This document shows, piece after piece, positions 1 through 31,231 of a DNA stretch of 64,000 bases. Both the position numbers and the translations under genes were made by a program. How positions within the stretch are numbered: the stretch's first letter is position 1; the number at the start of each line of letters is the position of its first letter. Below the pieces are notes generated by a model. It searched no databases, was not told the DNA's origin, and saw only the letters and a list, made by a program, of their open reading frames with translations. This DNA comes from Streptomyces sp. NBC_00457 (GTDB lineage Bacteria; Actinomycetota; Actinomycetes; Streptomycetales; Streptomycetaceae). Location of the stretch: NCBI RefSeq assembly GCF_036014015.1, contig NZ_CP107905.1, positions 558,001-622,000 of the forward strand, given 5' to 3'.

Positions 1-702
1 CACGCTGGCAGCTCCCGCCTGGTGGGCCGCCAGTACCGGTACATAGGCGACCACTCCCCCGTCGACGAGGGTCCGGCCCTCACGCACCACCGGGGGCAGG
101 ATCCCGGGAATGGCCGCGCTGGCCAGCAGCGCGGATTCGAGGTCTCCGTGGTCGAGCAGCACTGGGGCGCCGGTGGCGAGGTCCATGGCCACCGCGGTGA
201 ACGGGACCGCCAACTGCTCGATCCGCGACGGCAGCCCGGCCCGGGCGATCAGTCGCCGCAGGCCGCGGTCGGTGAAGACGCTGGCCCGTGTGGACAGGTG
301 GCCGAGTGGATACACCTCACGGCGGCGCAACTGGGTCCACACGTGGTCCAGCCATGGCGCGGCCCTGTTGGGGTGGGCGGCCGCGATGGCCCCGTTGAGT
401 GCACCCACCGAGGTTCCGATGATCATGTCCGGGATGAATCCGCGCTGCTCCAGCGCGTATCCGACACCGACATGCGCCGCTCCGAGCACACCACCGGCGC
501 CCACCACCACGGCCACAGGACGGGGAAGAGCGCGCAAGCCCGCCGAAGTCGGGTCCCCGGGCGACCGGCCCGATGACAGAGGACGCGTCCCCTTGTCGCC
601 CGTCACGGTTCGATGCCTCTTCTGGCCACGCCCGATCGCCGAGGCGCGCCCTCTGAAGGCAAAGCGTGCCAACGACACTGGCCCTCGACGAGTAACGCTC
701 AT
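1..702 (-). CDS. patatin-like phospholipase (C-terminus off the left edge)
   Basis: Predicted serine lipid acyl hydrolase. A glycine-rich oxyanion loop (VVVGAGGVLGAAHVG) is followed by the nucleophile elbow GTSVG and later by the VDGG motif carrying the catalytic Asp, the order expected for the patatin Ser-Asp dyad. The gene runs off the window at base 1, so the C-terminus is not seen. The ATG at 702 is preceded by GAAGGG; a second in-frame GTG at 606 has AGAAGAGG about nine bases upstream and is an equally good start, closer to the conserved domain. No signal peptide is evident. An ECF41-type promoter lies 48 bases upstream of 702, placing the gene in the putative regulon of this region. Confidence 0.8.
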   Translation of the reverse strand, partial: MSVTRRGPVSLARFAFRGRASAIGRGQKRHRTVTGDKGTRPLSSGRSPGDPTSAGLRALPRPVAVVVGAGGVLGAAHVGVGYALEQRGFIPDMIIGTSVGALNGAIAAAHPNRAAPWLDHVWTQLRRREVYPLGHLSTRASVFTDRGLRRLIARAGLPSRIEQLAVPFTAVAMDLATGAPVLLDHGDLESALLASAAIPGILPPVVREGRTLVDGGVVAYVPVLAAHQAGAASV

Positions 703-750
703 GAGATCGACCCTTCTCACACGGTGTTGGATCGCATTGGTTTCGCAACG

Positions 751-779
751 ATGACCGGGCAGCCGCCCAACCTGTGACA
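751..779 (-). promoter_or_regulatory. ECF41-type promoter of the patatin gene
   Basis: Read on the minus strand: TGTCACA (779-773), 16 bases, then GGTCAT (756-751). The architecture is the same as at ten other sites in the window. Confidence 0.75.
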
Positions 780-881
780 CGATGCTGCAAGGCTGGGAGC
801 GCGACGGTGACACCAACGACGTTTCGTGAGGGGCTGCTGGTCATCGTCCCGCACGGAGGAGGTCCACACTGCGGAGAGTCC

Positions 882-1832
882 TCAGGTGCTGTGCAGGACG
901 GTGCGTAGGGTCTGGATGGCCTGCTCCACTGCGGCAGTTGCTGCCGGTGTGCTCCGGAGAAGGTTGAGCATCATGAAGTCGTGCAGGGTGCCGTTGATTC
1001 GGATGCTCGTGGTGGGGACGTCAGCCTGGGCCAGCCTGCGGGCGTACGCCTCGCCCTCGTCCCGCAGCACATCGCTCTCGTCGACGATGACGAGCGCGGG
1101 CGGCAGCCCCTGCAACTCCTTCAGGCTCGCCCGCAGCGGCGATACGGTGGTCTCCGCCCGCTGGGCGAAATCGGTCGTGTAGCAGTCCCAGAACCAGGCC
1201 ATGGCCTTCGCCGTGAGGTAGGGGCCGGCCGCGAATTCCCGGTAACTTTCGGTGTTCTGGGCCGCGTCCGTCACGGGGTAGTACAGCGACTGGTGCGCGA
1301 AGGTCACATCACCACGCCGCTTGGCCATGAGGGTCAGCGCGGCGGTCATGTTGCCGCCGGCGGAGTCCCCGGCCACAGCCAGGCGGGAGCCGTCCAGCCC
1401 CTCGTCGGCGCCCTTGGCGGTGATCCACCGCGCTGTCGCGTACGCCTGTTCGATGGCCACCGGGTACTTGGCCTCCGGCGCACGGTCGTACTCCACGAAC
1501 ACGACGGCGGCATTCGTCCCCACGGCCAGCTCGCGCACCAGACGGTCATGAGTGCCGGCGTCGCCCGTCACCCAGCCCCCGCCGTGCAGGTAGAGGACGA
1601 CCGGCAGCGTGCGTTGACTGCCGACGGGCTTGACGATGCGTACCGGCACATCGCCCACCTCGGCGGGCACCGTGATCCACTTCTCCTCAATGTCCGGCTT
1701 CTCCACCGGCACTGCCTGCAGTTCGTCCAGGACCTTCCGGGCACCTTCCGGACCGAACTCGTACAGGAACGGCGGACTGGCCGTCGCGTCCGCGAGTGCC
1801 TGAGCCGCAGTCTCAAGAAGGGGCTTGGTCAT
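882..1832 (-). CDS. alpha/beta hydrolase, HSL-type esterase
   Basis: A 316-residue hormone-sensitive-lipase-family esterase predicted to hydrolyse short acyl or carboxyl esters in the cytoplasm. The HGGGW oxyanion motif lies near residue 83 and the nucleophile elbow GDSAGG near residue 160. A DESDVLRDEG segment and a late LHDFMM segment supply the catalytic Asp and His. The ATG at 1832 is chosen because GAGGAG lies eight bases upstream; the frame is open further upstream but without homology. An ECF41-type promoter sits 45 bases upstream. The promoter, leader and first codons are duplicated in decayed form at 3764-3889, so the locus has been copied within the region. Confidence 0.88.
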   Translation of the reverse strand: MTKPLLETAAQALADATASPPFLYEFGPEGARKVLDELQAVPVEKPDIEEKWITVPAEVGDVPVRIVKPVGSQRTLPVVLYLHGGGWVTGDAGTHDRLVRELAVGTNAAVVFVEYDRAPEAKYPVAIEQAYATARWITAKGADEGLDGSRLAVAGDSAGGNMTAALTLMAKRRGDVTFAHQSLYYPVTDAAQNTESYREFAAGPYLTAKAMAWFWDCYTTDFAQRAETTVSPLRASLKELQGLPPALVIVDESDVLRDEGEAYARRLAQADVPTTSIRINGTLHDFMMLNLLRSTPAATAAVEQAIQTLRTVLHST

Positions 1833-1877
1833 CACTGCGCTCCTCAGGTCGGCAGACTCTCGCCTGCTGTCACCCTT

Positions 1878-1906
1878 ATGACAAGGCACCTGCTGAAGGT
1901 GTGACA
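1878..1906 (-). promoter_or_regulatory. ECF41-type promoter of the esterase gene
   Basis: Minus strand: TGTCACA (1906-1900), 16 bases, TGTCAT (1883-1878). Downstream sequence matches the leader of the decayed copy at 3.8 kb. Confidence 0.75.
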
Positions 1907-2006
1907 TACGCCGAGACAGACCCAGACAACACGGTCGGTGTGCGGGGTCGCACTCCAACACTGCGGGGCCGCCCTCCAATACACGTCGGTCGCGCGTGCG
2001 GATGTC

Positions 2007-3632
2007 TCAGAGTCGGTTTTTGCTGGTGATCTCCGTGTACTCCTGCGCGGTCGGCTTGGTGATCTGCGTGCCTTCCCCGTAGAAGCTCCGGCTGAGCCTG
2101 GCACGCAGACGCTGAGGAAAGCGGGATCCGGCGTCCGGGCCTTCCCCGTTCCCCGCAGGACCGGTACCGATCGGCTGGTACTGCTCGTGTTGAGTGAGAA
2201 CGTGGAGTTGTTCTTGGCTGAGCGGCTCGTGCACCTCGATGAACTCGCCGTGCGGCAAACGCTTGATGATGCCGGTCTCGCGGCCGTGCAGCACTTTGTC
2301 GCGGTCTCGGCGCTGGAGGCCGAGTGCCCACCGCTTCGTTATGACGTAGGCCGCGAGAGGCCCGATGAAAAGGCCGATGCGAACTGCCCACGTCACTGAC
2401 TCGACCGAGACGTGGAAGCGGATGGCGATGATGTCGTTCGCGGCACCGATCCAGGCCACCAGATAGAAAGTGAGCCAGGCGACACCAAGTGCCGTTCGCA
2501 CGGGGCGGTTGCGGGGGTGGTCGAGGAGGTGCTGCTCACGGTCGTCACCGGTCACCCAGGATTCGATGAACGGGTAGGCACCCATGGCAAGGAAGAGACC
2601 AACGCCTGCCGACAGGGGGATCAGGTTATCCAAGGCCAGCGTGTGACCCCAGAAGGTGATCTCCCAGCCAGGCATGACCCGCAGCAGTCCGTCTGCCACA
2701 CCCATGTACCAGTCGGGCTGCGATCCGGCCGAAACCTGGTCGGCACGGTAAGGGCCGTACAGCCAGACAGGGTTGATCTGTGCGACCGCAGCCATGACGA
2801 AGATGACCCCGGCGACAAGGAAGAAGAACCCTCCGGACTTCACAGCACGTACCTTCAGCGGCAGGCCCACAACATTGTTGTTGTTCCGTCCCGGACCGGG
2901 ATACTGCGTGTGCCTGTGGTAGAGGACCATGAGCAGATGGGCTGCAAGAAGTCCCACCATGAGGGCAGGAATGATCAGAACGTGAATCGTGTTGAAGCGC
3001 GCCACCAGATCGTCCCCTGGAAACTCACCTCCGAAGAGGAACATCGAGAGGTAGGTTCCGATGATAGGGATGGAAAGGATTGTTCCGTTCACAACCATGA
3101 GTCCGGTTCCGGAAAGGAGGTCATCCGGAAGGTCGTATCCAGTGAGTCCTCCGAACATACCGAGAACCAGCAGAAGGAATCCAAAAACCCAGTTTAGTTC
3201 GCGAGGCTTACGGAAGGCGCCCGTGAAGAATACGCGCAGCATATGGACGAGCATGGCGGCGACAAAGATCAGCGCCGCCCAGTGGTGGGCCTGCCGTATC
3301 AGCAGGCCGCCACGGACGTCGAAGGAGATATGCATGGTCGAATTGAACGCCTCCGACACCAGCTGGCCCCTCAGCGGCGCGTAACTGCCCTGATACTCCA
3401 CTTGTTCCATGGACGGATGGAAGTACAGTGACAGATACATGCCCGTAATGATGAGGATGATGAAGCTATACAGGCATATCTCTCCCAGAATGAACGACCA
3501 GTGGTCCGGGAAAGCTCTTCGCGTTTTTGCCTTGACCACGCTGTAGACACCCAGGCGCCCATCAACCCATTCGGCAATCCTTTCCCCCTTCTCCCCTGTC
3601 CGCGCTTCGTTTCCCTGACTCCCGTCACCCAT
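2007..3632 (-). CDS. qcrB: cytochrome bc1 cytochrome b subunit, stand-alone paralogue
   Basis: A 541-residue membrane quinol oxidase subunit of the respiratory bc1 complex. The typical actinobacterial N-terminus (ADGRLG-like then FPDHWSFILGE) leads into paired transmembrane helices carrying the haem-ligand histidines (LIRQAHHWAALIFVAAMLVH and HVLIIPALMVGLLAAHLLMVLYH), the quinol-site PDWY motif, and a C-terminal extension. Length is normal for Streptomyces. The start at 3632 has a GGTGG/GGGGG purine run; a GTG at 3683 is possible. Neither qcrA nor qcrC is adjacent, so this is an orphan copy rather than the housekeeping operon. Codon use looks slightly less GC-rich than its neighbours. It could replace QcrB in a subset of complexes or protect against QcrB inhibitors; both are inference. 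Confidence 0.9.
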   Translation of the reverse strand: MGDGSQGNEARTGEKGERIAEWVDGRLGVYSVVKAKTRRAFPDHWSFILGEICLYSFIILIITGMYLSLYFHPSMEQVEYQGSYAPLRGQLVSEAFNSTMHISFDVRGGLLIRQAHHWAALIFVAAMLVHMLRVFFTGAFRKPRELNWVFGFLLLVLGMFGGLTGYDLPDDLLSGTGLMVVNGTILSIPIIGTYLSMFLFGGEFPGDDLVARFNTIHVLIIPALMVGLLAAHLLMVLYHRHTQYPGPGRNNNNVVGLPLKVRAVKSGGFFFLVAGVIFVMAAVAQINPVWLYGPYRADQVSAGSQPDWYMGVADGLLRVMPGWEITFWGHTLALDNLIPLSAGVGLFLAMGAYPFIESWVTGDDREQHLLDHPRNRPVRTALGVAWLTFYLVAWIGAANDIIAIRFHVSVESVTWAVRIGLFIGPLAAYVITKRWALGLQRRDRDKVLHGRETGIIKRLPHGEFIEVHEPLSQEQLHVLTQHEQYQPIGTGPAGNGEGPDAGSRFPQRLRARLSRSFYGEGTQITKPTAQEYTEITSKNRL

Positions 3633-3860: not shown

Positions 3861-3889
3861 ATGACCGGGCATGAGGCGTGGATGTGACA
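3861..3889 (-). promoter_or_regulatory. ECF41-type promoter in front of the decayed esterase copy
   Basis: Minus strand: TGTCACA (3889-3883), 16 bases, GGTCAT (3866-3861). It matches the motif exactly although its downstream gene is gone; qcrB starts about 230 bases further on in the same direction. Confidence 0.65.
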
Positions 3890-4046: not shown

Positions 4047-4631
4047 CTGGATTCGCTGTCGCCGGCCGAGCGGGCGGCGTTCGCACTCAATGACGTCTTC
4101 GGGATGACTCCGGGCACGGTCGCCGAAATTGTGGGACGCACCGAACCGGAGTGCGCCGAACTCGCCGACCGGGCCCGCCACAGTCTGCGGCGGCGGCGCT
4201 CTCGTCCGACGACGCCGGCCGAGCACGACGCCCTCGCCCAAGCCGTCCGCCATGCCTGCGTGAGGGAAGACGCCGAACTGCTGGCATCGCTGCTGCGCCC
4301 GGACGCCACGGTGTTCTTCGACGGCGGCGGCAAGGTCCGGGCACTGACCAGGCCCGTCCACGGCAGCCGACACGTAGCCCACAGCCTGCTGGCACTCCTG
4401 GCCCGCCGCCCACGCGTCACACTGACCACCCACTCCGTCAACGGCAGCACCGGCCTCGTCGCCCGCTACGACCACCAGGTTGCCGCCGTCATCAGCCTCG
4501 ACATCGCCGACCACCAGGTCGTACAACTCTGGGTCGTCCTCAACCCCGACAAACTCCGCCCCTGGAACCAGTCCGCCAACCCCAGCGGCACCCGCTCACG
4601 CGAGAACCTGTCAGAACGGGGCGACGGCTGA
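4047..4631 (+). pseudogene. C-terminal half of an ECF41-type sigma factor
   Basis: Starting at LDSLSPAERAA, this frame matches the sigma factor at 17873-18844 nearly continuously. It includes the sigma-4 helix-turn-helix and the SnoaL-like extension with both extension motifs, DGGGK and NPDKLRPW. The sigma-2 half needed for core polymerase and -10 recognition is missing; sequence upstream of 4047 shows no homology. The frame stays open for about 195 codons without a stop, and an internal ATG at 4103 exists. It is most simply a truncated duplicate, but a translated anti-sigma-like or decoy product cannot be excluded. Confidence 0.7.
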
Positions 4632-6533: not shown

Positions 6534-7898
6534 TCACGCAGCCACGTGTCCGGTTGCCTCGCTCCCGGCGGAGCGCTGCGGGTGGCCGCGGTCGCCGCTC
6601 TCGAGGAACGCGTCCCGCGGGTGCTGCACCGCGGCGAGCGACACCAGATCCCGGCCGAACAGGGCAGCGGTGAGCCAGACGGTGAGAACGCGGACCTTGC
6701 GCTCCCAGGTGGGCACGGCCAGGACGTGATAGCCCCGGTGCATGAGCCAGGCAGGAAGTCCCTTGATGACGATGCTCTTGTACTGGAAGATGCCCCGCCC
6801 CAGTCCCAGCGTCGCCACCACGCCCAGACTGCTGTGGCGGTAGTCGCGGATTCTGCCGCCGCGCAGGCTCGCTGCGATGTTCTTCGCAAGGCGTTTGCCC
6901 TGCCGGACGGCGTGCTGGGCGTTCGGCACCGTGCGCGCCCCTGGTACCGGCGAAGCCAGATCCGGAACGGCCGCGTCGTCTCCCGCCGCCCACACATCCG
7001 GCACGGGTTCGGTGTCGGTCCCCACGCGAAGATCGGGGCGGACCACCAGCAGCCCTCGCTCGTCGACCGGCAGGTCCGTGTGGTTCCGCACGACCGGGTT
7101 GGAGGCGTTGCCGGCGGTCCAGACGATCAGTTCCGAATCGAACTCCTCTCCGTCAGAGAGCACGACGTGCCCATCCACGGCGGAGACAAGCTGCGTATTG
7201 AGGTGTACATGCGCGCCACGGCGTTCCAAGGAGCGCACCACCCACGCACCTGGCCTGTCGCTCACTTCGGGCAGAATACGATCCTGGGCCTCGACCAAGT
7301 GAAATGACAGATCGTCAAGGTCCAGCTCGGGATGGAACTTGAGCATCGCGGTAGCCAGCGACAGCAGTTCGCCGAAGCCCTCGACACCGGTGAACCCGCC
7401 GCCCACGAACGTGACGGTGAGCAGCTTGCGCCGCTCGGCACCAGGTGGCAGCGCCGCCGCCTGGTCGAACGCGGTCAGAAGCCGGTCGCGGATGGCCACC
7501 GCCTCCTCCACATGCTTCAGACCGATCGCCTGCTGCGCCAGCCCCGGTACGGGGAAGGTGCGGGTCACGGCGCCGGCCGTGACCACGAGGGTGTCATAAC
7601 GGAGTTCGTAGTCGGGTCCGTTCACTGGCCGGACGGTGACCGTCCGGTCCCCGTTGCGGATCTCGATCGCCCTCCCCGCGATGAGCCGGGTCCTGCGCAG
7701 GTGACGCCGCAACGACACGGCGGCATGCCGTGCCTCGACCGACCCGGCGGTCACCTCCGGCAGGAAGGGCTGGTAGGTCATGTACGGGCGCGGGTCGACA
7801 ACCGTGACCCGCGCCTCGCTCGCACGCAGCTTCTTCTCCAGGCCCCACGCAGTGTAGAAGCCCGCATAGCCACCACCGACGATCAGGATCTCGCGCAT
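6534..7898 (-). CDS. NDH-2-type NAD(P)/FAD-dependent oxidoreductase
   Basis: A 454-residue pyridine nucleotide-disulphide-fold flavoprotein resembling type II NADH:quinone oxidoreductases. The FAD-binding GGGYAGFY is at residues 8-15; the second nucleotide-binding loop TFVGGGFTGVE is near residue 170; the FAD-ribityl segment PDVWAAGDDAA is near 310. The late amphipathic/hydrophobic segment (LPAWLMHRGYHVLAVPTW) fits membrane association, so electron delivery to menaquinone is likely. The ATG at 7898 is the first consistent with family N-termini and has AGGAG/AGGGG upstream. An ECF41-type promoter lies 31 bases upstream. A second gene of this class sits with a sigma factor at 29.9-31.1 kb. Confidence 0.87.
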   Translation of the reverse strand: MREILIVGGGYAGFYTAWGLEKKLRASEARVTVVDPRPYMTYQPFLPEVTAGSVEARHAAVSLRRHLRRTRLIAGRAIEIRNGDRTVTVRPVNGPDYELRYDTLVVTAGAVTRTFPVPGLAQQAIGLKHVEEAVAIRDRLLTAFDQAAALPPGAERRKLLTVTFVGGGFTGVEGFGELLSLATAMLKFHPELDLDDLSFHLVEAQDRILPEVSDRPGAWVVRSLERRGAHVHLNTQLVSAVDGHVVLSDGEEFDSELIVWTAGNASNPVVRNHTDLPVDERGLLVVRPDLRVGTDTEPVPDVWAAGDDAAVPDLASPVPGARTVPNAQHAVRQGKRLAKNIAASLRGGRIRDYRHSSLGVVATLGLGRGIFQYKSIVIKGLPAWLMHRGYHVLAVPTWERKVRVLTVWLTAALFGRDLVSLAAVQHPRDAFLESGDRGHPQRSAGSEATGHVAA

Positions 7899-7929: not shown

Positions 7930-7958
7930 TAGACAGGACAGAGCGCCATGGTGTGACA
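7930..7958 (-). promoter_or_regulatory. ECF41-type promoter of the NDH-2-like gene
   Basis: Minus strand: TGTCACA (7958-7952), 16 bases, TGTCTA (7935-7930). Confidence 0.75.
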
Positions 7959-8917: not shown

Positions 8918-9361
8918 TCAGTGCCTGGCCCGCGGTGCACGCAGGTGGGTCCGCTGGGCCAGTTCGTCCTCGTCGACCAGGGTGAGCATCGGCCGGCCGG
9001 GTTCACACAGCATGGTCACGGTGAACCGGGTCCGCGCATCCGTCAGAGCGTTGCCGTCCTGATAGTGGATCACGTCGCCGCCAGGCTCCCAGAAGGTCTC
9101 ACCGGCCCTCACCACACGCTCGGGTTCACCCTCGATTTCGAAGCGCACCGCGCCTTCGATCACGTATCCGAAGGCCGGTCCCGAGTGGCGGTGCGGAGGA
9201 GTGCCGGGGTCACCGGGCGGCCACTCGACGAAGATGGTCATGGCCGAAGCACCCTCGGGGATGAAGGGCGGCTTGGCATCCTGCAGCATCTTCGCCGCCG
9301 TCTTCCACACCTCGGATCGCGGTTGAACGCTGGTCCTGCCCTCTGAGTCCTTGTCCGACAC
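8918..9361 (-). CDS. cupin-domain protein
   Basis: A 147-residue single-domain cupin. The first metal motif reads PGTPPHRHSGPAFGYVIEG (H-x-H ... E) and the second runs through GETFWEPGGDVIHYQ with a late His, so a mononuclear metal site in a beta-barrel is expected. The substrate is unknown; dioxygenase, isomerase or sensor roles are all seen in such proteins. The GTG at 9361 has GGAGGT eight bases upstream. It is co-oriented with the small gene that follows and is driven by an ECF41-type promoter 85 bases upstream. It is divergent from the reductase at 9751, which has its own copy of the promoter. Confidence 0.82.
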   Translation of the reverse strand: MSDKDSEGRTSVQPRSEVWKTAAKMLQDAKPPFIPEGASAMTIFVEWPPGDPGTPPHRHSGPAFGYVIEGAVRFEIEGEPERVVRAGETFWEPGGDVIHYQDGNALTDARTRFTVTMLCEPGRPMLTLVDEDELAQRTHLRAPRARH

Positions 9362-9446: not shown

Positions 9447-9475
9447 ATGACCGGGCACCCGGAGCTTCTGTGACA
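9447..9475 (-). promoter_or_regulatory. ECF41-type promoter of the cupin gene
   Basis: Minus strand: TGTCACA (9475-9469), 16 bases, GGTCAT (9452-9447). A plus-strand TGTCACA at 9477-9483 abuts it and makes a TGTGACA/TGTCACA inverted pair, but that copy has no matching -10. Confidence 0.75.
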
Positions 9476-9683: not shown

Positions 9684-9712
9684 TGTCACAGATAGGGCCA
9701 CTGTCCTGTCTC
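9684..9712 (+). promoter_or_regulatory. ECF41-type promoter of the NmrA-like reductase gene
   Basis: Plus strand: TGTCACA (9684-9690), 16 bases, TGTCTC (9707-9712), 38 bases before the ATG at 9751. Confidence 0.75.
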
Positions 9713-9750: not shown

Positions 9751-10497
9751 ATGAAGGTCGTAGTCATCGGTGGAACCGGGCTCATCGGCTCGAAGCTGGT
9801 CGGCAAGCTCAACGAGCACGGGCACGAGGCGGTCGCGGCCGCCCCCAACACCGGCGTCAACACGTTGACGGGCGAGGGCCTGGCCGAGGTCCTCAAGGAC
9901 GCCTCGGTCGTGGTCGACGTGTCCAACTCCCCCTCCTTCGAGGACAACGCCGTCATGGACTTCTTCCGCACCTCCACAACCAACCTCCTCAAAGCGGAGA
10001 CCGAGGCCGGCGTGACCCACCACGTGGCGCTGTCCGTGGTCGGCACCGAGCGCCTCCAGGAGAGCGGCTACTTCCGCGCCAAGCAAACCCAGGAAGAGCT
10101 GATCAAAGCGTCCGGCATCCCCTACTCCATCGTCCACGCCACCCAGTTCTTCGAGTTCATGAAGGGGATCGCGGACATGTCGACCGACGGCGACACCGTC
10201 CGGCTGGCCCCCGTCAAGATCCAGCCCATCTACTCCGACGACGTGGCCGCCGCCGTCGGCCGCACCGCGGTCGGCACCCCGGTCAACGGGATGGTAGAGG
10301 TCGCGGGCCCCGACCAGTTCCAGCTCGACGAGCTCATCCGCAAGGCACTCACCACCAAGAACGACCCCCGCACGGTCATCACGGACCCCCACGCCCCGTA
10401 CTCCGGCGCCCAGGTGAAGGAGACCACACTCCTCCCAGGCCCAGACGCACAGATCGCCCAGACCAAGCTCACCGACTGGCTCGCCCAGCAGCGGTAA
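9751..10497 (+). CDS. NmrA/epimerase-type NAD(P)-binding reductase
   Basis: A 248-residue atypical short-chain dehydrogenase with an N-terminal Rossmann loop (VVIGGTGLIGSKLV). It lacks a clear YxxxK dyad, having YFRAKQTQEELIKASGIPYSIV in the place typical of NmrA/SDR-a5 proteins. It may be an NAD(P)H-dependent reductase or redox sensor. The ATG at 9751 follows GAGAGGAA; upstream residues in the frame are not conserved. Epimerase/NmrA-type proteins are among the classic neighbours and targets of ECF41 sigma factors (the COE set: carboxymuconolactone decarboxylase, oxidoreductase, epimerase), and this gene has an ECF41-type promoter. A strong hairpin separates it from the YceI gene downstream. 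Confidence 0.85.
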   Translation: MKVVVIGGTGLIGSKLVGKLNEHGHEAVAAAPNTGVNTLTGEGLAEVLKDASVVVDVSNSPSFEDNAVMDFFRTSTTNLLKAETEAGVTHHVALSVVGTERLQESGYFRAKQTQEELIKASGIPYSIVHATQFFEFMKGIADMSTDGDTVRLAPVKIQPIYSDDVAAAVGRTAVGTPVNGMVEVAGPDQFQLDELIRKALTTKNDPRTVITDPHAPYSGAQVKETTLLPGPDAQIAQTKLTDWLAQQR

Positions 10498-10579: not shown

Positions 10580-11167
10580 ATGTCTCATCACACGGACATA
10601 ACAACTCCGAATGCCTCTCCCTATCAAGGGCTGACGGGCATCTACACCATTGACCCGGCCCATAGCACGATCGCGTTTTCCGTCCGGCATGCCATGATCA
10701 CCAACGTACGCGGGAAATTCACCGCATTCGAAGGAACGCTCAGGCTCGACGGGACCCGTCCCACGCGGTCCGAGGCCCAGGTCAGTGTCCAGACCGGCAG
10801 TCTCGACACGGGCATCGCGCAGCGGGACGCCCATGTCACCGGCCCGGACTTCCTCGACTCGGCGACATTCCCTCTCATGAGCTTTCAGTCGACCGGGATC
10901 GTGGAGGCCGGCGACGGCCGGTTCCTCATGGACGGCGGCCTTCGGATCAAGGACATCGAAGTGCCCCTTCACATCGATCTCGAGTTCGGCGGCGCAGGCG
11001 AGGACGCCAACGGGCAGAACCGTGTCGGCTTCGAGGGCACGGCCACCCTGAAGCGCTCCGACTGGGGGATCGACTGGAACTCGGCGCTGGCCACAGGCGG
11101 AGTGCTGATCAGCGACAAGGTGAAGCTGACCCTCGACATCTCTGCCGTACGACTGGACACGCAATAG
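10580..11167 (+). CDS. YceI-family lipocalin-like protein
   Basis: A 195-residue YceI-domain protein, a beta-barrel that in characterised members binds isoprenoid or polyisoprenoid ligands. The family signature is clear: GIYTIDPAHSTIAFSVRHAMITNVRGKF at the N-terminus, later DFLDSATFPLMSF, and LKRSDWGIDWN near the end. No signal peptide is visible, so it is cytoplasmic here. The start at 10580 follows GAAGGAAC. It lies 82 bases after the reductase gene, separated by a hairpin, and may be expressed from the same ECF41-type promoter. Confidence 0.88.
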   Translation: MSHHTDITTPNASPYQGLTGIYTIDPAHSTIAFSVRHAMITNVRGKFTAFEGTLRLDGTRPTRSEAQVSVQTGSLDTGIAQRDAHVTGPDFLDSATFPLMSFQSTGIVEAGDGRFLMDGGLRIKDIEVPLHIDLEFGGAGEDANGQNRVGFEGTATLKRSDWGIDWNSALATGGVLISDKVKLTLDISAVRLDTQ

Positions 11168-17642: not shown

Positions 17643-17671
17643 CAGACCGTGCGACCGGCCCAGGTGTGACA
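17643..17671 (-). promoter_or_regulatory. ECF41-type promoter of the WhiB-like gene
   Basis: Minus strand: TGTCACA (17671-17665), 16 bases, GGTCTG (17648-17643). Confidence 0.72.
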
Positions 17672-17749: not shown

Positions 17750-17778
17750 TGTCACAGGATCCGTGCCTGCTCGGTCAG
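17750..17778 (+). promoter_or_regulatory. ECF41-type promoter of the sigma gene at 17873
   Basis: Plus strand: TGTCACA (17750-17756), 16 bases, GGTCAG (17773-17778). Divergent from the WhiB-like promoter, with 78 bases between the two -35 elements. Confidence 0.72.
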
Positions 17779-18895: not shown

Positions 18896-19828
18896 TCACC
18901 GCACGGGGTCGGCGTCTTCCGAAGCGGTCGCGAAACGGGAACGCGACTCGAGAAGCGCGGCGATCTTGCTCGGGCTGAACACCCACATCAACTGGTGGAT
19001 GCCTTCCCTCGAGGCGGCCATCGCCATGAAGGCGATGGCTTGGCCGTCTCGGTAGAGCAGCGCACCCGTGGAGCCGTTGGCGTCGACCAGCTTGGCCTCC
19101 GCCTCTCGCCAGAAAACCGGATAGGTGACCATCTTCGCCACATGTGCACGGCCCAGCACGGGTATACGAGCACAGCCCCGCATACCGTTCCCGTCGGACA
19201 GACTGACGACATCGGGGGTGAGGAGGGCCTCAAGCGAAGCCACATCCCCCGTTTGAGCCGCCGAGACGAAGGCACTGAGAAGGCGTCGGTGCTCCGCCGT
19301 GTCCACGCTCTCCCGCGGCTCGTCCGACAGACGCTTGCGAGCGCGGCTCACGATCTTCCGTACGTTGACGAGGCTGAGCTGAAGGATCTCGGCGATCTCG
19401 GGGTAGGCGTAATCGAACGCCTCGCGCAGGACGTACGCAGCGCGCTCCGTGGGGCTGAGCTTCTCCAGCACCAACAGCAGCGCCAATTCAAGGGCTTCCG
19501 CACGCTGCGCACCCAGCTCCGGATCCGAGCTCGTGTCGACGGGTTCGGGCAGCCACGGCCCTATGTACGTCTCCCGACGCACACGCGCGGACTGTGCGAC
19601 GTTGATGGCCAGTCGGGTCGTCGCACTCGAAAGGAAGGCGACCGGGCTGACCACCACGGAACGGTCGGTGTTCTGCCAGCGCAGCCACACTTCCTGAACC
19701 ACGTCTTCGGCCTCGACCACGCTGCCGAGCACACGGTAGGCGATGCCGAAGAGACGCCTCCGACACTGCAGAAAAACGGAAACGGCCTCTTCCAGGTCAC
19801 TCGTCGTGGGGGACGGCTCGACATCCAT
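18896..19828 (-). CDS. ECF41-type sigma factor, probably autoregulated
   Basis: A 310-residue complete ECF41-like factor: sigma-2 at residues 15-85 (AEDVVQEVWLRWQ), linker motif YIGPWLPEP at 88-96, sigma-4 at 115-170 (LSPTERAAYVLREAFDYAYPEIAEIL), then a SnoaL-like extension containing DGNGMRG in the DGGGK position and FSPSKI near the NPDKL position. The ATG at 19828 gives family-like spacing; an upstream in-frame ATG at 19969 would add 47 residues. An exact ECF41-type promoter at 20047-20075 predicts autoregulation, and a strong hairpin lies in the leader. It is convergent with the sigma gene ending at 18844. Confidence 0.88.
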   Translation of the reverse strand: MDVEPSPTTSDLEEAVSVFLQCRRRLFGIAYRVLGSVVEAEDVVQEVWLRWQNTDRSVVVSPVAFLSSATTRLAINVAQSARVRRETYIGPWLPEPVDTSSDPELGAQRAEALELALLLVLEKLSPTERAAYVLREAFDYAYPEIAEILQLSLVNVRKIVSRARKRLSDEPRESVDTAEHRRLLSAFVSAAQTGDVASLEALLTPDVVSLSDGNGMRGCARIPVLGRAHVAKMVTYPVFWREAEAKLVDANGSTGALLYRDGQAIAFMAMAASREGIHQLMWVFSPSKIAALLESRSRFATASEDADPVR

Positions 19829-20046: not shown

Positions 20047-20075
20047 AAGACAAGGGTCGGATCGGTTCTGTGACA
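20047..20075 (-). promoter_or_regulatory. ECF41-type promoter of the ECF41 gene
   Basis: Minus strand: TGTCACA (20075-20069), 16 bases, TGTCTT (20052-20047). Confidence 0.75.
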
Positions 20076-20209: not shown

Positions 20210-20551
20210 TCAGCGCAGCGATTCCACGATGACCACGCACAGGCCGATCATCGTCACGGTGATCAGGGTCATGGTGGTCAGCGTGCCTCTCAGCCATCGC
20301 CGGATGCGGACACGGTGTTGCTCCTCGACCATGGTCAGGCTGTCGGTGATGTGCTCTGTCACCATGTGGGCGACGTAGGCCTGTTCCTCGAGATACCACC
20401 GCTCGATGTCCGTCTTCTGCTCCCGGTTGAGCCCAGGTGCCCGTGCGGTGAAGTCCGCCACGCGCTGGCGCGCCGCTTGCAGATGGGCTTCTTCGTACAG
20501 GAAGTTCCCAATGTCGATCAGGCCGCGCTCGGCCTCTTCCCTCGCGTCCAT
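20210..20551 (-). CDS. small tail-anchored membrane protein
   Basis: 113 residues. A charged helical soluble part (residues 1-85, e.g. REEAERGLIDIGNFLYEEAHLQAARQRVADF) precedes a single hydrophobic helix at the extreme C-terminus (LTTMTLITVTMIGLCVVIVESLR), so a C-tail-anchored topology is likely. No family is recognised. The ATG at 20551 (MDAREEA) has GGAG seven bases upstream; ATG 20572 has no ribosome-binding site. It has its own ECF41-type promoter back-to-back with that of the cation ATPase, suggesting a paired membrane function. Confidence 0.65.
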   Translation of the reverse strand: MDAREEAERGLIDIGNFLYEEAHLQAARQRVADFTARAPGLNREQKTDIERWYLEEQAYVAHMVTEHITDSLTMVEEQHRVRIRRWLRGTLTTMTLITVTMIGLCVVIVESLR

Positions 20552-20672
20552 GACGTGCTCCAGGTGAAGCATGAGGCCCGGTCGCGGCGAGACAGGATCC
20601 GGGCGGGTCGAATGCCGGGGCGTACGGCGGATCCCTCCAGGTGCCGCTGAGAAACTCTTCCCTCACACGAAA

Positions 20673-20701
20673 TGGACCGGACAGCCCGCCCGTCTGTGAC
20701 A
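20673..20701 (-). promoter_or_regulatory. ECF41-type promoter of the small membrane protein gene
   Basis: Minus strand: TGTCACA (20701-20695), 16 bases, GGTCCA (20678-20673). Confidence 0.68.
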
Positions 20702-20749: not shown

Positions 20750-20778
20750 TGTCACACCCTCGCCTTGTGCCCGGTCAT
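20750..20778 (+). promoter_or_regulatory. ECF41-type promoter of the cation ATPase gene
   Basis: Plus strand: TGTCACA (20750-20756), 16 bases, GGTCAT (20773-20778), 58 bases before the ATG at 20837. The following ACGGGTG matches the same position at the esterase (AAGGGTG) and decayed-copy (ATGGGTG) promoters. Confidence 0.78.
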
Positions 20779-20836: not shown

Positions 20837-23575
20837 ATGACCGAGCCCATCACCAAACCCATCACCGAACCCGCGGCGGAGACGGCCGACCGCGCACCCG
20901 CCGCTGAGCCGGACGCCTATCGGCAGGCTCCCGACCAGGTGGCGGAACGGCTCGGCGTCGACCCGGGGGCGGGGCTGAGCACACGGCAGGTCTCCGAGCG
21001 CGCGGCGGTCCACGGCGCCAATCAGCTGTCCGAACCGGCCCGACGCCCGCAGTGGCTGAAGTTCCTGGACCAGTTCCGCAACTGGCTCATCCTCATCCTG
21101 CTGATCGCCGCCGTGGTGGCCGGAGCTATCGGTGACATCAGCGACGCAGTAGTGATCACCGTCGTACTGCTGATCAACGCCACGCTCGGTTACTGGCAGG
21201 AGCGACGTGCCGAGCGCAGTCTGGAGGCACTGCGCCGGATGCTGGTGCCCACGGCCAGGGTTCGCCGCGACGGCACGGAGCAGGTGGTGGAGGCGCGGCT
21301 CCTCGTACCAGGAGACGTGGTTCTGCTGGAGGCGGGCGACCGCGTACCGGCCGACGGTCGGCTGACCGTCGCGGAGACGGTCGAGGTGGCCGAGGCTGCC
21401 CTGACCGGTGAGTCCCAGCCGGTTGCCAAGAGTGTGACAACCTTCGATCACACCTCGATCACCTCGGTGCCGCTCGCCGAACGCACAACCATGCTGTTCA
21501 TGAACACCGCGCTGACCCGGGGCCGGGCCGAGATGATCGTCACGGCCACCGGGATGCGCACGGAACTCGGCGCCATCGCCGAGGCGTTGCGCACCGGGAC
21601 GGAGCCGCCCACCCCGCTCCAGGTCCAACTGGACAGCCTGGGCCGGCGGCTGGCGCTACTGAGCGGAGTCGCGGTCGTCGCCTATGCCCTGAGCGCGCTG
21701 GTCCGTGGTGAGTCGCTCTCGGACGTCGCACTGCAGGCCGTGGCCCTCGCCGTCGCCGCGATCCCCGAAGGCCTGCCCGCCGTACTGGCACTGACGCTGG
21801 CACTCGGTGTACACCGTATGGCGCGTCGCGGTGCCATCGTCAAACGACTGGCCTCGGTGGAGTCGCTCGGCGCTGCCACGGTCGTGTGCAGCGACAAGAC
21901 CGGCACGCTCACCCTCAACGAGATGACCGCACGGATCTTGTGGACCGCGGGCAGGCTCTACGACGTCACCGGGGAGGGGTACGGAACGGCGGGCGCCATC
22001 CGCATCCATGGCACGGAAGACGCCTCTGCACCCGACGATCTCCATGACGCGGTGCTTCCCTTCGCCCTGTGCAACGACGCACACGTGTCCGGCGGCGTCT
22101 TCATCGGTGACCCGACGGAAGCCGCACTGGTCGTCCTGGCGGCCAAGGCCGGTGTGGACGCCGACTGGCTGCGTTCGGAGCTGCCCCGCGCGGGCGAGCT
22201 GCCCTTCGACGGGGCCACCAAGTACATGGCCACCTTCCACACCGAACCAGACGGCCGCACCCGCGTCCACGTCAAGGGCGCGGTCGATGTCCTGCTGGAC
22301 ATGTGCACCGACGTGCTCACGGAGGACGGTGTGCGGGCCCTCGACGAACGGCACAGGGACGAGCTCCTCGCCGTGACGGGCCAACTCGGCGGCAGCGGAC
22401 TTCGGGTGCTGGGCGCGGCCACCGCCCTGATGGACGGCACACCGAGCGCGTTCACTCCGGCCGCGCTGCCCGGCCTGACCCTGGTGTCGGTCGCCGGGAT
22501 CGCCGACCCGCCCCGCCCGCAGGCACGGGAAGCGATGGCGCTGTGCCGCACGGCGGGCGTGGCCGTCAAGATGATCACCGGTGACCATGCCGACACGGCG
22601 GCGGCCATCGCCCGCGAGCTGTACATCGACGGCGATGTCGTGACAGGGGCCGAACTGGACCGGATGACCGAGCAACAACTCGCCGAGCGCATCGATGACA
22701 TCGGTGTGTTCGCCCGGGTCGCCCCGGAGCACAAGGTGGTGATCGTGCGGACGCTGACGAACCGGGGGCACATAGTCGCGATGACCGGTGACGGTGTCAA
22801 TGACGCGGCAGCGCTCCGGGCCGCCCACATCGGCGTGGCCATGGGCATCACGGGTACGGACGTGGCCAAGGAAGCCGCCGATGTCGTCCTCACCGACGAC
22901 GACTTCTCCACGATCGTGCAGGCCGTCCACGAAGGCCGCGCCATCTACGCCAACATCGTCAAGTTCGTCCGCTTCCAGCTGTCCACCAACATCGGCGCGA
23001 TTCTGACGCTGCTCAGCGCCTCTCTCGCCGGTCTGCCCTCACCGCTCACGGCGGCCCAACTGCTGTGGGTCAACATCATCATGGACGGTCCACCCGCGAT
23101 GGCCCTGGCCGTCGACCCCGCCCGTGACGATGTGATGCGCCATCCGCCGCGCGACCCGGGTGAGCGCATCCTGAACGCCCGCCGCCTCCTCGCCATCGGC
23201 TGGGCCGGTGCGGTCATGGCCCTGGGCACGGTGACGCTCTTCGCCATCGCCCGCTCCCACGTCGGGCCGGACACCGCCGTGACCATGGCGTTCACCACGT
23301 TCGTACTGTTCCAGCCATTCAACGCGCTCAGTGCCCGCGCGGACGGTGGCACGCTGCTGGGCCGACACCAGTTCCGCAACCGCGCGCTGTGGCTGTGCCT
23401 GGCCGGCGTCCTCGTCGTACAGGTCGCCGTCGTCCAACTGCCCTGGGCGCAGGCGGTCTTCGGGACCGTGCCGCTGACCGCGACCCAATGGGCTCTCTGT
23501 CTGGGCACCGCGTCCACCGTCCTCCTCGCCGAACTCGCCGTGCGCACCGCACGGTCGGCGCTGGGCGACAGGTAA
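20837..23575 (+). CDS. P-type cation-transporting ATPase (PacL/CtpF class)
   Basis: A 912-residue P-type ATPase. It has an N-terminal cation-ATPase domain, actuator TGES motif, PEGLPA in the ion-binding M4 helix, phosphorylation site DKTGTLT, nucleotide-domain KGA, MITGDH and the hinge MTGDGVNDA. The C-terminal transmembrane bundle contains NIIMDGPPAMAL. Motifs fit type II (Ca2+ or Na+/K+-like) pumps rather than heavy-metal types, since no N-terminal CxxC or CPC is present. It exports or imports cations across the plasma membrane using ATP. The ATG at 20837 follows AAGGAG. It is driven by an ECF41-type promoter and divergent from a tail-anchored protein with the same promoter. Confidence 0.92.
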   Translation: MTEPITKPITEPAAETADRAPAAEPDAYRQAPDQVAERLGVDPGAGLSTRQVSERAAVHGANQLSEPARRPQWLKFLDQFRNWLILILLIAAVVAGAIGDISDAVVITVVLLINATLGYWQERRAERSLEALRRMLVPTARVRRDGTEQVVEARLLVPGDVVLLEAGDRVPADGRLTVAETVEVAEAALTGESQPVAKSVTTFDHTSITSVPLAERTTMLFMNTALTRGRAEMIVTATGMRTELGAIAEALRTGTEPPTPLQVQLDSLGRRLALLSGVAVVAYALSALVRGESLSDVALQAVALAVAAIPEGLPAVLALTLALGVHRMARRGAIVKRLASVESLGAATVVCSDKTGTLTLNEMTARILWTAGRLYDVTGEGYGTAGAIRIHGTEDASAPDDLHDAVLPFALCNDAHVSGGVFIGDPTEAALVVLAAKAGVDADWLRSELPRAGELPFDGATKYMATFHTEPDGRTRVHVKGAVDVLLDMCTDVLTEDGVRALDERHRDELLAVTGQLGGSGLRVLGAATALMDGTPSAFTPAALPGLTLVSVAGIADPPRPQAREAMALCRTAGVAVKMITGDHADTAAAIARELYIDGDVVTGAELDRMTEQQLAERIDDIGVFARVAPEHKVVIVRTLTNRGHIVAMTGDGVNDAAALRAAHIGVAMGITGTDVAKEAADVVLTDDDFSTIVQAVHEGRAIYANIVKFVRFQLSTNIGAILTLLSASLAGLPSPLTAAQLLWVNIIMDGPPAMALAVDPARDDVMRHPPRDPGERILNARRLLAIGWAGAVMALGTVTLFAIARSHVGPDTAVTMAFTTFVLFQPFNALSARADGGTLLGRHQFRNRALWLCLAGVLVVQVAVVQLPWAQAVFGTVPLTATQWALCLGTASTVLLAELAVRTARSALGDR

Positions 23576-27879: not shown

Positions 27880-27880
27880 C

Positions 27881-28918: not shown

Positions 28919-28969
28919 GGGCACACGTTGGCACACCGGGTCCTTCGTGGATTCCATGTCGGCGCCGGG

Positions 28970-29929
28970 TCACCACTGGGTGATGAGCGGTGTGTCGGGT
29001 TCATGTTGGCGCCAGGCTTCGGTGAGGCGGGCGAGGCGGGTGGGGGCGGCGATGCCGCGCACCGTTGCGATCCGGCCGCTCGCGAGGTCGAACGTCGCGA
29101 TGCCCCTGACCTGGTCGCCGATCACGAAGAGAATGGCAGGGGCGCCGTTGACGTGCGCGTAGTGGATGGCGGGCGTGCCGCCCGCAAGGCGCCGTTTCGC
29201 GGCTGTGGGTTTGAGGCCGGCCCGTACGACGGCGGCGACACGCTGCGGAGTGTCGAACCGCAGCAGCTTCGCTGCCGTGCCGCCGACGCCGTCGGAGATC
29301 GCGATCGCGTCGTCGGTGAGCAGCGCCACCAGCCGTTCGGTGCGCCCAGAGGTGGCGGCGGCAAGGAATTCCTCGACGATCCTGCGGGCGGATGCCGGGT
29401 CGACCTCGCTGCCGTCGCGGCGGCGCTCGGCGGTGACGCGGCGCCGGGACCGGTGGAGGTGCTGCTGGCTTGCTGACTCGGTGATGTCGAGGATCTCGGC
29501 GATCTCGGCGTGGCTGTAGGAGAACGCTTCGCGCAGGACGTAGACGGCCCGCTCGACGGGTGACAGGCGCTCCATGAGCGTCAGCACGGCCAGGGAGACC
29601 GATTCCCGCTGCTCGAACGTCTCGGCCGGGCCGAGCATCGGATCGCCGTCGAGGAGCGGTTCGGGGAGCCAGGCACCGGCGGTGCGTTCGCGGCGGGCCT
29701 GTGCCGAGCGGAGCCGGTCGAGGCACAGGTTGGTGACGACCTTGGTCAGCCATGCTTCCGGCACCTTGATGCGCTCCCGGTCGGCGGCCTGCCAGTGCAG
29801 GAACCCGTCCTGCACGGCGTCTTCGGCGTCGGTGGCGGAGCCCAGGAGCCGGTAGGCCAGCGAGGCCAGCCGGTTCCGGCTGGCCTCGAACTGACTGGTG
29901 TCGAAGCGATCAGGGGCGGTGCCGTCCAT
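28970..29929 (-). CDS. ECF41-type (SigJ-like) sigma factor
   Basis: A 319-residue complete ECF41 factor: sigma-2 at residues 14-85 (LASLAYRLLGSATDAEDAVQDGFLHWQ), linker motif GAWLPEPLL at 86-93, sigma-4 at 112-170 (LSPVERAVYVLREAFSYSHAEIAEIL), then the SnoaL-like extension with ISDGVGGTAAK in the DGGGK position. The ATG at 29929 follows TAAGGTG and lies 10 bases after the oxidoreductase gene, so the two form an operon. This oxidoreductase-sigma pairing is the textbook ECF41 arrangement. Transcription probably starts at the promoter at 31203-31231. Confidence 0.92.
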   Translation of the reverse strand: MDGTAPDRFDTSQFEASRNRLASLAYRLLGSATDAEDAVQDGFLHWQAADRERIKVPEAWLTKVVTNLCLDRLRSAQARRERTAGAWLPEPLLDGDPMLGPAETFEQRESVSLAVLTLMERLSPVERAVYVLREAFSYSHAEIAEILDITESASQQHLHRSRRRVTAERRRDGSEVDPASARRIVEEFLAAATSGRTERLVALLTDDAIAISDGVGGTAAKLLRFDTPQRVAAVVRAGLKPTAAKRRLAGGTPAIHYAHVNGAPAILFVIGDQVRGIATFDLASGRIATVRGIAAPTRLARLTEAWRQHEPDTPLITQW

Positions 29930-29939
29930 GCGGATCACC

Positions 29940-31142
29940 TTAGGCGGCAACCCGCTTCTCGGCAGCGGCAGGTAGCGCGGCGTCCATACGGTGCTTGCGC
30001 TTGGGCAGGCCGAAGGTGGGGTGCGAGGTGGCCCACAGCGACATCTTGAGGATGCCCGCCTTGATCCGCGCGGGATTCCGGCCACCCATGTACTTCGGCT
30101 TCGCCTGCCCTTCGTCGTCGACCGTCTGCAGGATCCCGTCCCGCCGTCCGAGGCTGATGTGGTTGCCCTCGTAGACCAGCTTGGTGTTCGCGATCTTGCG
30201 GCCGGTCAGGCGGCCCACGATCGCCTCGACGGCCTGCCGGCCGGTGTAGCCGGCCGAAGCGCAGGACATCGGCAGCGGCCGGCCGTTGTCGCCGATGGCG
30301 TAGGCGCTGTCACCGATGGCGTAGACGTCCGCGTGCGAGACCGACCGCATGGTGCGATCGACGACGATCCGACCGTTCTCGGCGACCTCAAGACCGCCGG
30401 CGGCGGCGAGAGGGCTGACCGCGAACCCGGCCGTCCACACGGTCACGTCGGCCGCCAGGGCGGTGCCGTCGGCGCAGAGCACCCGCGCCGCTTCGACGGC
30501 TTCGACCTCGCTGTGCTCCAGGACGGTGATGCCCAGCCGGTCGCAGGCCTGACGCAGGTGGCCGCGGGCACCGGCGGAGAGCCGGGCGCCGAGCTCGCCG
30601 CGGGCGACCAGGGCCACCGACAGGCCGGGCCGGGATTCGGCGATCTCCGTGGCGGTCTCGATGCCGGTCAGCCCGTCGCCGACGACCACGACATTCCGGC
30701 CTTCGCCCCGCCCGCCCAGATAGTCCAGTCGCTCGCGCAGACGCCGCGCCGAGGGCCGGGCGGCGACGTCGAACGCGTGCTCGGCCACGCCGGGGACGCC
30801 ATGAACGTCACCGCGGCTGCCGAGCGCGTAGAGAAGCGTGTCGTAGCCGACCTCGCCGCCGCCGTCGGCGTCGGCCACGGCGACGACCTGGCGCTCGGGG
30901 TCGACGGCGGTGACACGGGCCAGACGCAGCCGTATCCCCGTGCCCGCGAAAACGTCGACGAGCTTCGGAGCCTCGATCTCCCGGCCGGCCGCCAACTGGT
31001 GCAGCCGCATGCGCTGGACGAAGTCCGGCTCGGCGTTGACCACGGTGATCTCGGTGTCCTCCGAGGACAGCCGACGGGCCAGGGTCCCGGCGGCGTAAGC
31101 CCCGGCGTAGCCGGCGCCGAGAACGACGATGCGGTGCTTCAT
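29940..31142 (-). CDS. NDH-2-like FAD oxidoreductase, partner of the ECF41 factor
   Basis: 400 residues. FAD-binding VVLGAGYAGAYAA is at the N-terminus, VVVGDGLTGIETATE near residue 150 is the NAD(P) loop, and ADVYAIGDSAYAIGD near 275 is the second FAD contact. The C-terminus is basic without a clear membrane helix. It is a flavin-dependent NAD(P)H oxidoreductase of unknown acceptor. Oxidoreductases are standard neighbours of ECF41 genes. The ATG at 31142 follows AGGAG. The family is shared with the gene at 6534-7898, but the two are not close paralogues. Confidence 0.88.
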   Translation of the reverse strand: MKHRIVVLGAGYAGAYAAGTLARRLSSEDTEITVVNAEPDFVQRMRLHQLAAGREIEAPKLVDVFAGTGIRLRLARVTAVDPERQVVAVADADGGGEVGYDTLLYALGSRGDVHGVPGVAEHAFDVAARPSARRLRERLDYLGGRGEGRNVVVVGDGLTGIETATEIAESRPGLSVALVARGELGARLSAGARGHLRQACDRLGITVLEHSEVEAVEAARVLCADGTALAADVTVWTAGFAVSPLAAAGGLEVAENGRIVVDRTMRSVSHADVYAIGDSAYAIGDNGRPLPMSCASAGYTGRQAVEAIVGRLTGRKIANTKLVYEGNHISLGRRDGILQTVDDEGQAKPKYMGGRNPARIKAGILKMSLWATSHPTFGLPKRKHRMDAALPAAAEKRVAA

Positions 31143-31202
31143 GTGTTCGCTCCTGTCGGTTCGCTTGCTCTCGGTGACTTGAGCGGAACAGCGCCCCGAT
31201 TG

Positions 31203-31231
31203 CTGACAGGAACTGCATGTGTCATGGGTCA
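31203..31231 (-). promoter_or_regulatory. weaker ECF41-type promoter of the oxidoreductase-sigma operon
   Basis: Minus strand: TGACCCA (31231-31225), 16 bases, TGTCAG (31208-31203). The -35 differs from TGTCACA at two positions; spacing and -10 fit. Confidence 0.5.

Follow-up and report, generated by a model that had tools for sequence, protein, structure and literature searches.

A candidate island-confined set of ECF41-type promoters in Streptomyces

Introduction

Sigma factors of the extracytoplasmic function (ECF) group ECF41 are widespread. For two of them, Ecf41Bli of Bacillus licheniformis and Ecf41Rsp of Rhodobacter sphaeroides, a -35 element TGTCACA, a spacer of 16±1 bp, a -10 consensus CGTC and one target operon each are reported (Wecke et al. 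2012, PMC3426412). The present work deals with a stretch of 64,000 nucleotides of Streptomyces sp. NBC_00457 (the window; contig NZ_CP107905.1), in which an initial annotation had noted many copies of a promoter of this type. These sites are probably the promoters of a regulon that is confined to one chromosomal island and has that island's own ECF41-like sigma factors as readers, to judge from the DNA and its relatives.

The factor RpoE9 of Sinorhizobium meliloti is an ECF41 with a matching promoter and a single reported target, a carboxymuconolactone decarboxylase (CMD) gene likely co-transcribed with the sigma gene (PMC6180224). In Streptomyces coelicolor, several sigma factors were described through iModulons as acting on few clustered loci, for example SigJ on SCO1265-SCO1288 (PMC11538686); targets are clustered there as well, and the accessible text names neither an ECF41 nor such an island. 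A precedent for control in trans is the ECF56 pair SigG1-RsfG, a SnoaL-bearing sigma factor and its separate antagonist (PMC7730460). That pair belongs to another ECF group and lacks the NPDKL motif considered below, and RsfG is not described, in the text available, as an ECF-derived SnoaL protein.

The island has in common with Ecf41Bli and Ecf41Rsp the -35 element, the 16-bp gap, the WLPEP linker and the C-terminal extension. The kinds of target, namely CMD, oxidoreductase and epimerase-like short-chain dehydrogenase/reductase (SDR) genes, are also shared. Whereas those factors have one target operon and a -10 of CGTC, the island has 18-19 sites, a -10 of YDGTC, sigma paralogues and a split-off SnoaL protein. 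Instead of one target operon beside a sigma gene, 19 sites were found in 43 kb before different genes, which are predicted targets, one of these sites belonging to a GTGTC pair. The regulon would be far larger than described, as the initial annotation held, in comparison with the one operon reported for Ecf41Bli and Ecf41Rsp and with RpoE9 and its one target. No large or island-confined ECF41 regulon was found in the accessible portions of the ECF41 literature searched, which agrees with the proposal that the system is an undescribed one.

Sites in the window and in the host genome

All eleven TGTCACA-N16-KGTC motifs listed for the window were recovered as exact matches at their places (shuffle mean 0.09; 0 of 100 shuffles reached 11). 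The 27-bp cores, which had first been given with two extra bases, lie on the minus strand at 753-779 (TGTCACA-N15-CGGTC, before a patatin-like gene), 1880-1906 (-10 TTGTC, alpha/beta hydrolase), 3863-3889 (CGGTC, QcrB-like cytochrome b), 7932-7958 (CTGTC, NDH-2-like gene), 9449-9475 (CGGTC, cupin), 17645-17671 (CGGTC, WhiB-like gene), 20049-20075 (TTGTC, sigma gene of class B) and 20675-20701 (CGGTC, gene for a 120-aa protein). On the plus strand they lie at 9684-9710 (CTGTC, NmrA-like SDR), 17750-17776 (CGGTC, the degenerate ECF41 gene F9) and 20750-20776 (CGGTC, P-type ATPase). A called gene follows on the same strand at 11 of 11 sites. The distance to its start is 34-103 bp at eight of them and longer before the patatin-like (237), cytochrome b (324) and sigma (221) genes; the earlier statement that every site faces a start codon stands, and the usual distance of 30-120 bases that went with it does not extend to these three. 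No exact site was found beyond 20.8 kb, including the 32-64 kb of the window said to be free of them. The weaker match once listed at 31203-31231(-) reads TGACCCA...TGTC; with two mismatches in the -35 it was rejected as a promoter site and was not counted.

In the whole host genome (10,802,565 bases in one contig, the window being 558001-622000), 22 exact matches were found and the pattern read backwards gave 2. Nineteen of the 22 fall within contig positions 535848-578776 (43 kb, 0.4% of the genome), eight of them left of the window. The motif density is thus local and not chromosome-wide. The site-bearing island begins 22 kb left of the window and half of its 43-kb span lies outside, so that the region 702..31231 first delimited holds real sites and is too small. 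The promoters, which had been called identical, are invariant in the -35 and in GTC; the base before GTC varies between G and T, and one site of the left arm is GTGTC. A single exact YKGTC site occurs outside the island, at 6772236, before a cupin 51-58% identical to the island cupin family F2.

Recurrence across the genus

Among 150 genomes of the genus, 17 (host included) hold at least 12 sites; the median of the other 133 is 3. The number of ECF41-type genes, taken as raw numbers per genome in which a value of 15 means at least 15, tracks the site count (rho 0.51; median 13 vs 6). Stretches were fetched from 10 of the 16 other high-site genomes and gave, with the host island, 13 stretches and 202 sites, two stretches being low in sites (G141b 6, G084b 5). 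The sites are clustered in the 11 stretches with at least 10 (host included), over spans of 15-89 kb. A called gene lies at most 450 bp downstream of 189 of the 202 sites (median 77 bp) and 13 are without one. Gene order is scrambled between islands; the same families recur and the promoters stay with the genes. Mostly site-led are the SdhA-like (14/15), QcrB (9/9), NDH-2-like (8/9), SDR (32/39), cupin F2 (11/14), ferredoxin (7/8) and ferredoxin reductase (6/7) families; ECF sigma genes are site-led in 7/36. None of 265 genomes of the class outside the genus holds 12 or more sites, and the top two (11, 9) have them spread over contigs. Sites outside the genus were seen in a Nocardiopsis locus (5), an Actinacidiphila locus (5) and one of two loci from Catenulispora metagenome-assembled genomes (7).

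A second sample was obtained by a protein search with the SdhA-like enzyme, the best 80 of 574 matches being used as named loci (65 from Streptomyces). Over 1.57 Mb, 406 sites were counted in these loci, as against 1 for the pattern read backwards. In 63 of the 80 an exact site lies 60-79 bp ahead of the start of the SdhA-like gene; at the same position five loci have a site with one mismatch and one with two. Eleven loci, which we take from their names to be Microbacteriaceae, have no site there (at least four mismatches each), and the remaining 69 consist of 63 exact and six with 1-2 mismatches. It is the site more than the region that is conserved, since pairwise identity among the 63 exact loci is 49% in the spacer, 39% in the 60 bp upstream and 69% from the -10 to the start. 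The 98% identity of the core in these 63 rows was not used as evidence, the rows having been picked for an exact site. In four SdhA-like loci (L087, L089, L094, L125) CGTCACA stands at the same place instead of TGTCACA, so exact searches undercount the regulon.

Spacing and the -10 element

The gap is 16 at 208 sites of the stretches, 15 at one and 17 at three; in the 80 named loci, chosen by protein only, the corresponding numbers are 415, 4 and 6. A lesser peak at gap 11 (30 in the stretches, 68 in the named loci) arises because TGTC often occurs inside the spacer, and gaps 10, 12 and 22 have 5-19 each. The -10 letters of the 208 sites are CGGTC (135), CTGTC (30), TGGTC (22), TTGTC (13) and CAGTC (5), with GTGTC, AGGTC and TAGTC once each. 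YDGTC is therefore present in 206 of 208, the exceptions being the GTGTC and the AGGTC site. The base before GTC is C in 0 of the 208 and in 3 of the 415. Letters just after GTC are A/T-rich. The initial annotation had called the motif ECF41-type, and it does agree with the published promoter in -35 and spacer; the -10 is YDGTC, mostly CGGTC, and not the consensus CGTC.

Twenty ECF41 loci outside the islands were fetched for comparison, six from the host genome and 14 from the top of the ECF41 gene list. Twelve of them hold 13 sites; GTC is preceded by C in seven of these and by T in six, never by G. By sigma clade the -10 of these standalone loci is GTGTC, GCGTC, TCGTC or CCGTC.

Sigma factors of the island

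The host genome has 16 TIGR02957 matches, seven at 524-588 kb and nine elsewhere. In a quick tree of the sigma genes, 34 island rows were separated from 19 others on one branch (SH-aLRT 95; 0 of 500 shuffles). The tree contains 53 of 75 rows: 15 rows of F9 type were left out, as were F174, F140 and those of L151, L153 and L154. The gene at 28970-29929 was assigned to the standalone group beforehand, and seven rows, including 28970-29929 and three island rows above 0.7, carry a long-branch flag. The clade with GTGTC promoters has its own branch (SH-aLRT 95), which includes the left-arm ECF41 of an NDH-2 pair.

Three classes of island sigma were distinguished. Nine of the 11 genomes have class A (298 aa), all 11 have class B, and nine have class C, which lacks the SnoaL part; no class A gene lies in the stretches fetched for the window's genome and G141. 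The sigma2 loop reads the -10 element. In class B this loop is like QxTDRSVVxSP, as against VxVDLxxVRDQ in the GTGTC clade, and both the GTGTC and GCGTC clades depart from the island form there.

The class B sigma of the window, 18896-19828(-), scores 314.5 bits with TIGR02957 (cut-off 323.25), 259.9 with the SigJ profile (cut-off 271) and 107.8 with the next family. The linker motif is present as GPWLPEP. Its C-terminal extension has DGNG and SPSKI in place of DGGG and NPDKL and gives no Pfam SnoaL match at E 0.001. The best solved relative is Mycobacterium tuberculosis SigJ (PDB 5xe7; E 1.5e-41). Six of the 11 class B genes have a site before them; in the window it lies 221 bp before the gene by our own gene call. 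This sigma, which carries such a promoter itself, is the most likely reader of the island, and on present sequence comparisons we lean towards it as the main one. The sigma genes at 18896 and 28970 had both been proposed as factors of the regulon; the former falls in the island clade, while the product of 28970-29929, a long branch of unsure place with no exact site before its gene, falls outside.

A degenerate ECF41 beside class B

The F9 gene (17873-18844, +) encodes a relative of these sigmas in which WLPEP is lost and a SnoaL part with DGGGK and NPDKL is kept. It has no Sigma70_r2 match and its r4 match is below the cut-off; the working sigma2, WLPEP linker and sigma4 expected of an ECF41 sigma factor were not found. 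Among F9 proteins of the named loci WLPEP is absent in 33/33 and NPDKL is kept in 32/33. Pairwise identities, from which truncated and near-duplicate rows were left out, are 0.58 (sigma2), 0.20 (linker), 0.55 (sigma4) and 0.66 (SnoaL) for F9. In the same order they are 0.82, 0.90, 0.84 and 0.76 for class A, 0.88, 0.90, 0.77 and 0.74 for class B, and 0.84, 0.86, 0.84 and 0.62 for standalone ECF41s. Conservation is thus highest in the SnoaL part for F9, and lowest in that part for each of the other three. A site of its own stands before F9 in 9 of 14 members from the islands and, with the pattern relaxed to [TC]GTCACA and YDGTC, in 23 of 33 from the named loci. The F9 gene is next to that of class B in 7 of 11 islands, where shuffling gives 0.44 on average and at most 4 in 5000 rounds; it is next to class A in 0 of 9 and to class C in 1 of 16.

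The predicted model of F9 (mean predicted local distance difference test 75.9, predicted template modelling score 0.50) is confident in the SnoaL part and the sigma2 helices and weak in the linker and sigma4. Its best solved match is again SigJ (E 7.4e-13), in which both halves are in one protein. F9 looks like an ECF41 that is losing the sigma half and keeping the SnoaL half. That it is a dying, pseudogene-like paralogue without function seems unlikely. The sigma4 half is indeed ragged, above all in second copies, and a shorter remnant of 175 aa (SnoaL part with DGGGK and NPDKL) lies in the window's genome at 4104-4631(+); the constancy of the F9 motifs, the inverted order of conservation, the sites of F9 itself and its place beside class B argue against such decay. 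NPDKL has been reported to contact the WLPEP linker (PMC7730460), so that a contact in trans between F9 and a sigma is a natural guess. We regard a role of F9 as a trans regulator of the island sigmas as a tentative candidate, and class A and most class B proteins, which themselves retain an altered, NPxK[LI]-like form of the motif, speak against that contact.

Which regulator reads the sites

The proposed scheme is as follows. An island ECF41-like sigma would read TGTCACA-16 bp-YDGTC promoters before the island genes. The island sigmas would recognise YDGTC (mostly CGGTC), and the other ECF41 clades of the genus GTGTC, GCGTC or TCGTC; with such a difference the island would be insulated from other ECF41s at the -10, the -35 being common to all. 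Regulation may act through the SnoaL-type C-terminal domain, as proposed for ECF41, part of this control having perhaps moved to F9 in the islands. The predicted output consists of second copies of respiratory and redox enzymes and of hydrolases: QcrB, NDH-2-like proteins, an SdhA-like flavoprotein, AceE behind an SDR, OsmC, cupins, SDRs and CMD, to which sister islands would add FdxA ferredoxin and its reductase. The left-arm ECF41/NDH-2 genes form an ordinary pair with a GTGTC promoter, and not every site therefore need belong to one regulon.

Several observations weigh against a single island regulon. The contrast in the -10 is drawn from 13 standalone sites, eight of the 20 standalone loci having none; the site of L149 lies 3.5 kb from the sigma gene, and GTGTC and GCGTC occur side by side in the locus L155. 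Gene starts are those of a simple in-house caller, and five of the 80 named loci (L091, L098, L099, L114, L121) match fetched islands, so the two samples overlap. In the stretches few sites precede CMD (5/13), alpha/beta hydrolase F13 (5/9), YceI (3/11) and DUF5134 (2/9) genes and none precede AceE (0/10), MFS (0/8), DUF427 (0/9), F7 (0/13) or LuxR-LAL (0/24) genes, AceE being nevertheless behind a motif-led SDR in 7/10. In the named loci site-led genes are few for QcrB (7/15), DUF5134 (1/16) and YceI (0/17). A rough operon rule applied to 11 stretches places 206 of their 484 genes in motif-led units, so that wiring of the island is incomplete. Three of the 11 class B proteins are without the regulatory domain (two calls of 243 aa, one of 201 aa). 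Several island sigmas coexist, and the sites are not assignable to class A, B or C.

This last point leaves some room for several small overlapping regulons, in which the three classes share out the sites by -10 variant. There are four common variants and up to three sigma classes per island; the variants are mixed in most stretches and class A is missing from those of two genomes, and we hold such a division to be possible but less probable than a common regulon. It is improbable, more so than decay of F9, that standalone ECF41s read the island sites too and that the -10 difference is neutral drift. The -35 and gap are identical in both groups, T occurs before GTC in both, nine TIGR02957 matches lie outside 524-588 kb, the island itself contains an ECF41-NDH-2 pair of classical appearance with GTGTC, and the sigma2 loop of the standalone sigma L149 partly resembles that of the islands. 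Such cross-talk is opposed by the near absence of C before GTC in island and named-locus sites, by the absence of G there in the 13 standalone sites, by -10 letters that mostly follow the sigma clade, with strong support for the GTGTC branch, and by sigma2 loops of the GTGTC and GCGTC clades that are unlike those of the islands. Least credible by far is that the motif is an operator of a DNA-binding regulator, such as a LuxR-LAL, TetR or WhiB protein of the island. Two AAA_16 + GerE proteins lie in or beside the island, a WhiB lies in it, and some 5' distances exceed 200 bp; the site is, however, asymmetric and bipartite with a rigid 16-bp gap and one orientation to the genes, it matches the published ECF41 promoter and is A/T-rich just after GTC, and it precedes the class B sigma gene in about half the islands.

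With ECF41-like island sigmas as the probable readers, the island is apparently an unusually self-contained gene-control block of 15-90 kb, with ten to twenty-odd genes under one rare promoter type in many species, as compared with reported ECF41 regulons of one operon. An ECF41 of Azospirillum reportedly controls lateral flagella and may have a larger regulon. The regulon size of one or two genes given in the initial annotation thus fits the accounts of B. licheniformis, R. sphaeroides and RpoE9 and may not be universal. A private promoter code of this kind would be a way for an accessory gene set to stay co-regulated despite shuffled order. It is conceivable, though doubtful, that genes of many origins are held in one block and circuit by such a code and that the one-component ECF41 switch has been split into sigmas, part of them lacking the SnoaL domain, and a free SnoaL protein acting in trans via NPDKL-WLPEP, an anti-sigma born from a sigma; this would be a possible case of an anti-sigma evolved from a sigma. 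The -10 letters, largely following the sigma clade, offer testable specificity determinants in sigma2, and the named targets give clues to the signal: quinone-linked respiration, redox defence and lipid hydrolysis. A stress or alternative-respiration programme, with a role in alternative respiration or redox defence read from gene names, is a speculative suggestion. SCO7095-SCO7145 may, we presume, be the S. coelicolor counterpart of the island. Published descriptions give SCO7120 as a QcrB paralogue (PMC7931247) and SCO7112 as a 298-aa ECF (PMC2631018).

Genes behind the sites in the host genome

In the window the site-led genes begin with the patatin-like gene (1-516, minus strand, running to window position -362; label by eye), whose family F47 is motif-led in 3/3 stretches having it, and an alpha/beta hydrolase assigned by family scan (Abhydrolase_3, F13; 882-1832, -). 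The QcrB-like gene (F14; 2007-3539, -) scores above the NF050120 cut-off and its product is close to actinobacterial QcrB of solved structures. The genome has six copies in all, and the closest to this one is 66% identical; no QcrA or QcrC was found among the neighbouring genes scanned. Then come an NDH-2/SQR-like flavoprotein (Pyr_redox_2, F15; 6534-7898, -), a cupin (F2; 8918-9361, -), the NmrA-like SDR (F0; 9751-10497, +) as first gene with a YceI-like gene (F6; 10694-11167, +) directly after it, the WhiB-like gene (F23; 17257-17547, -), the 120-aa protein without Pfam match (F24; 20210-20572, -) and a P-type cation-transporting ATPase (20837-23575, +), a family found in fewer than 3 of 13 stretches compared. 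A class C sigma (sigma2-sigma4 without SnoaL domain; 16477-17190, +) has no site of its own.

The eight sites of the left arm precede, in order, a DUF5134 gene; a decayed NmrA-like reading followed by an AceE-like gene; a methyltransferase; OsmC; a decayed OsmC-like reading; the NDH-2 and ECF41 pair (545823-548012, ECF41 at 547116), which carries the one GTGTC site of the island; the SdhA-like flavoprotein; and an NmrA-like SDR. The decayed NmrA-like, AceE-like (pyruvate dehydrogenase (PDH) E1) and decayed OsmC-like labels were given by eye. The nearest full-length paralogue of the SdhA-like protein is just 38% identical. PDH E2, SDR and OsmC copies of the host island (539677-540177, 535977-536800, 542100-542555) look decayed by eye, and sister islands hold whole members of these families. 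Sister islands also have aldehyde-dehydrogenase-like, AMP-binding-like and PIG-L genes in a row (F25, F32, F36; L034:3581-6859), unseen in the island of the window.

The SDR genes at contig 550438-551184 and 567751-568497 (window 9751-10497) are 98% identical in DNA over 808 bp and have different promoters; the pair is, by this identity, a recent duplication or conversion. A copied promoter cassette was rejected as the explanation of the NmrA copies, identity within genomes being 0.37-0.76 among the 40 most alike pairs, except the host pair (0.99). No tRNA that could serve as an integration landmark was found in the window, L023 or L024.

QcrB paralogues also occur elsewhere. Outside the island, at 868851-871159 of the host contig, a further QcrB paralogue comes immediately after a gene of ECF41 type, and the genome has two more ECF41/QcrB sets at a distance of 16-31 kb from each other. 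ECF41 and QcrB copies at 215087-248074 and 10554537-10587484 are mirror images equidistant from the contig ends, which suggests long terminal inverted repeats of a linear chromosome. QcrB was rejected as an island marker, the four plasmid matches examined of 87 (H1, H2, H3, H9) being in other settings. On a linear plasmid of S. xanthophaeus (L068, 11887-13608) a QcrB paralogue lies inside a prenylated-polyketide-like cluster with mevalonate genes, a type III polyketide synthase and an aromatic prenyltransferase, and is perhaps a self-resistance copy. A lone site of the GTGTC type, apart from those above and strongly conserved, lies at 4458737-4458763 of the host contig; its 27-mer, TGTCACAAGGGAGGCGCACACGGTGTC, is found unchanged, once each, in 12 or more further genomes of the genus.

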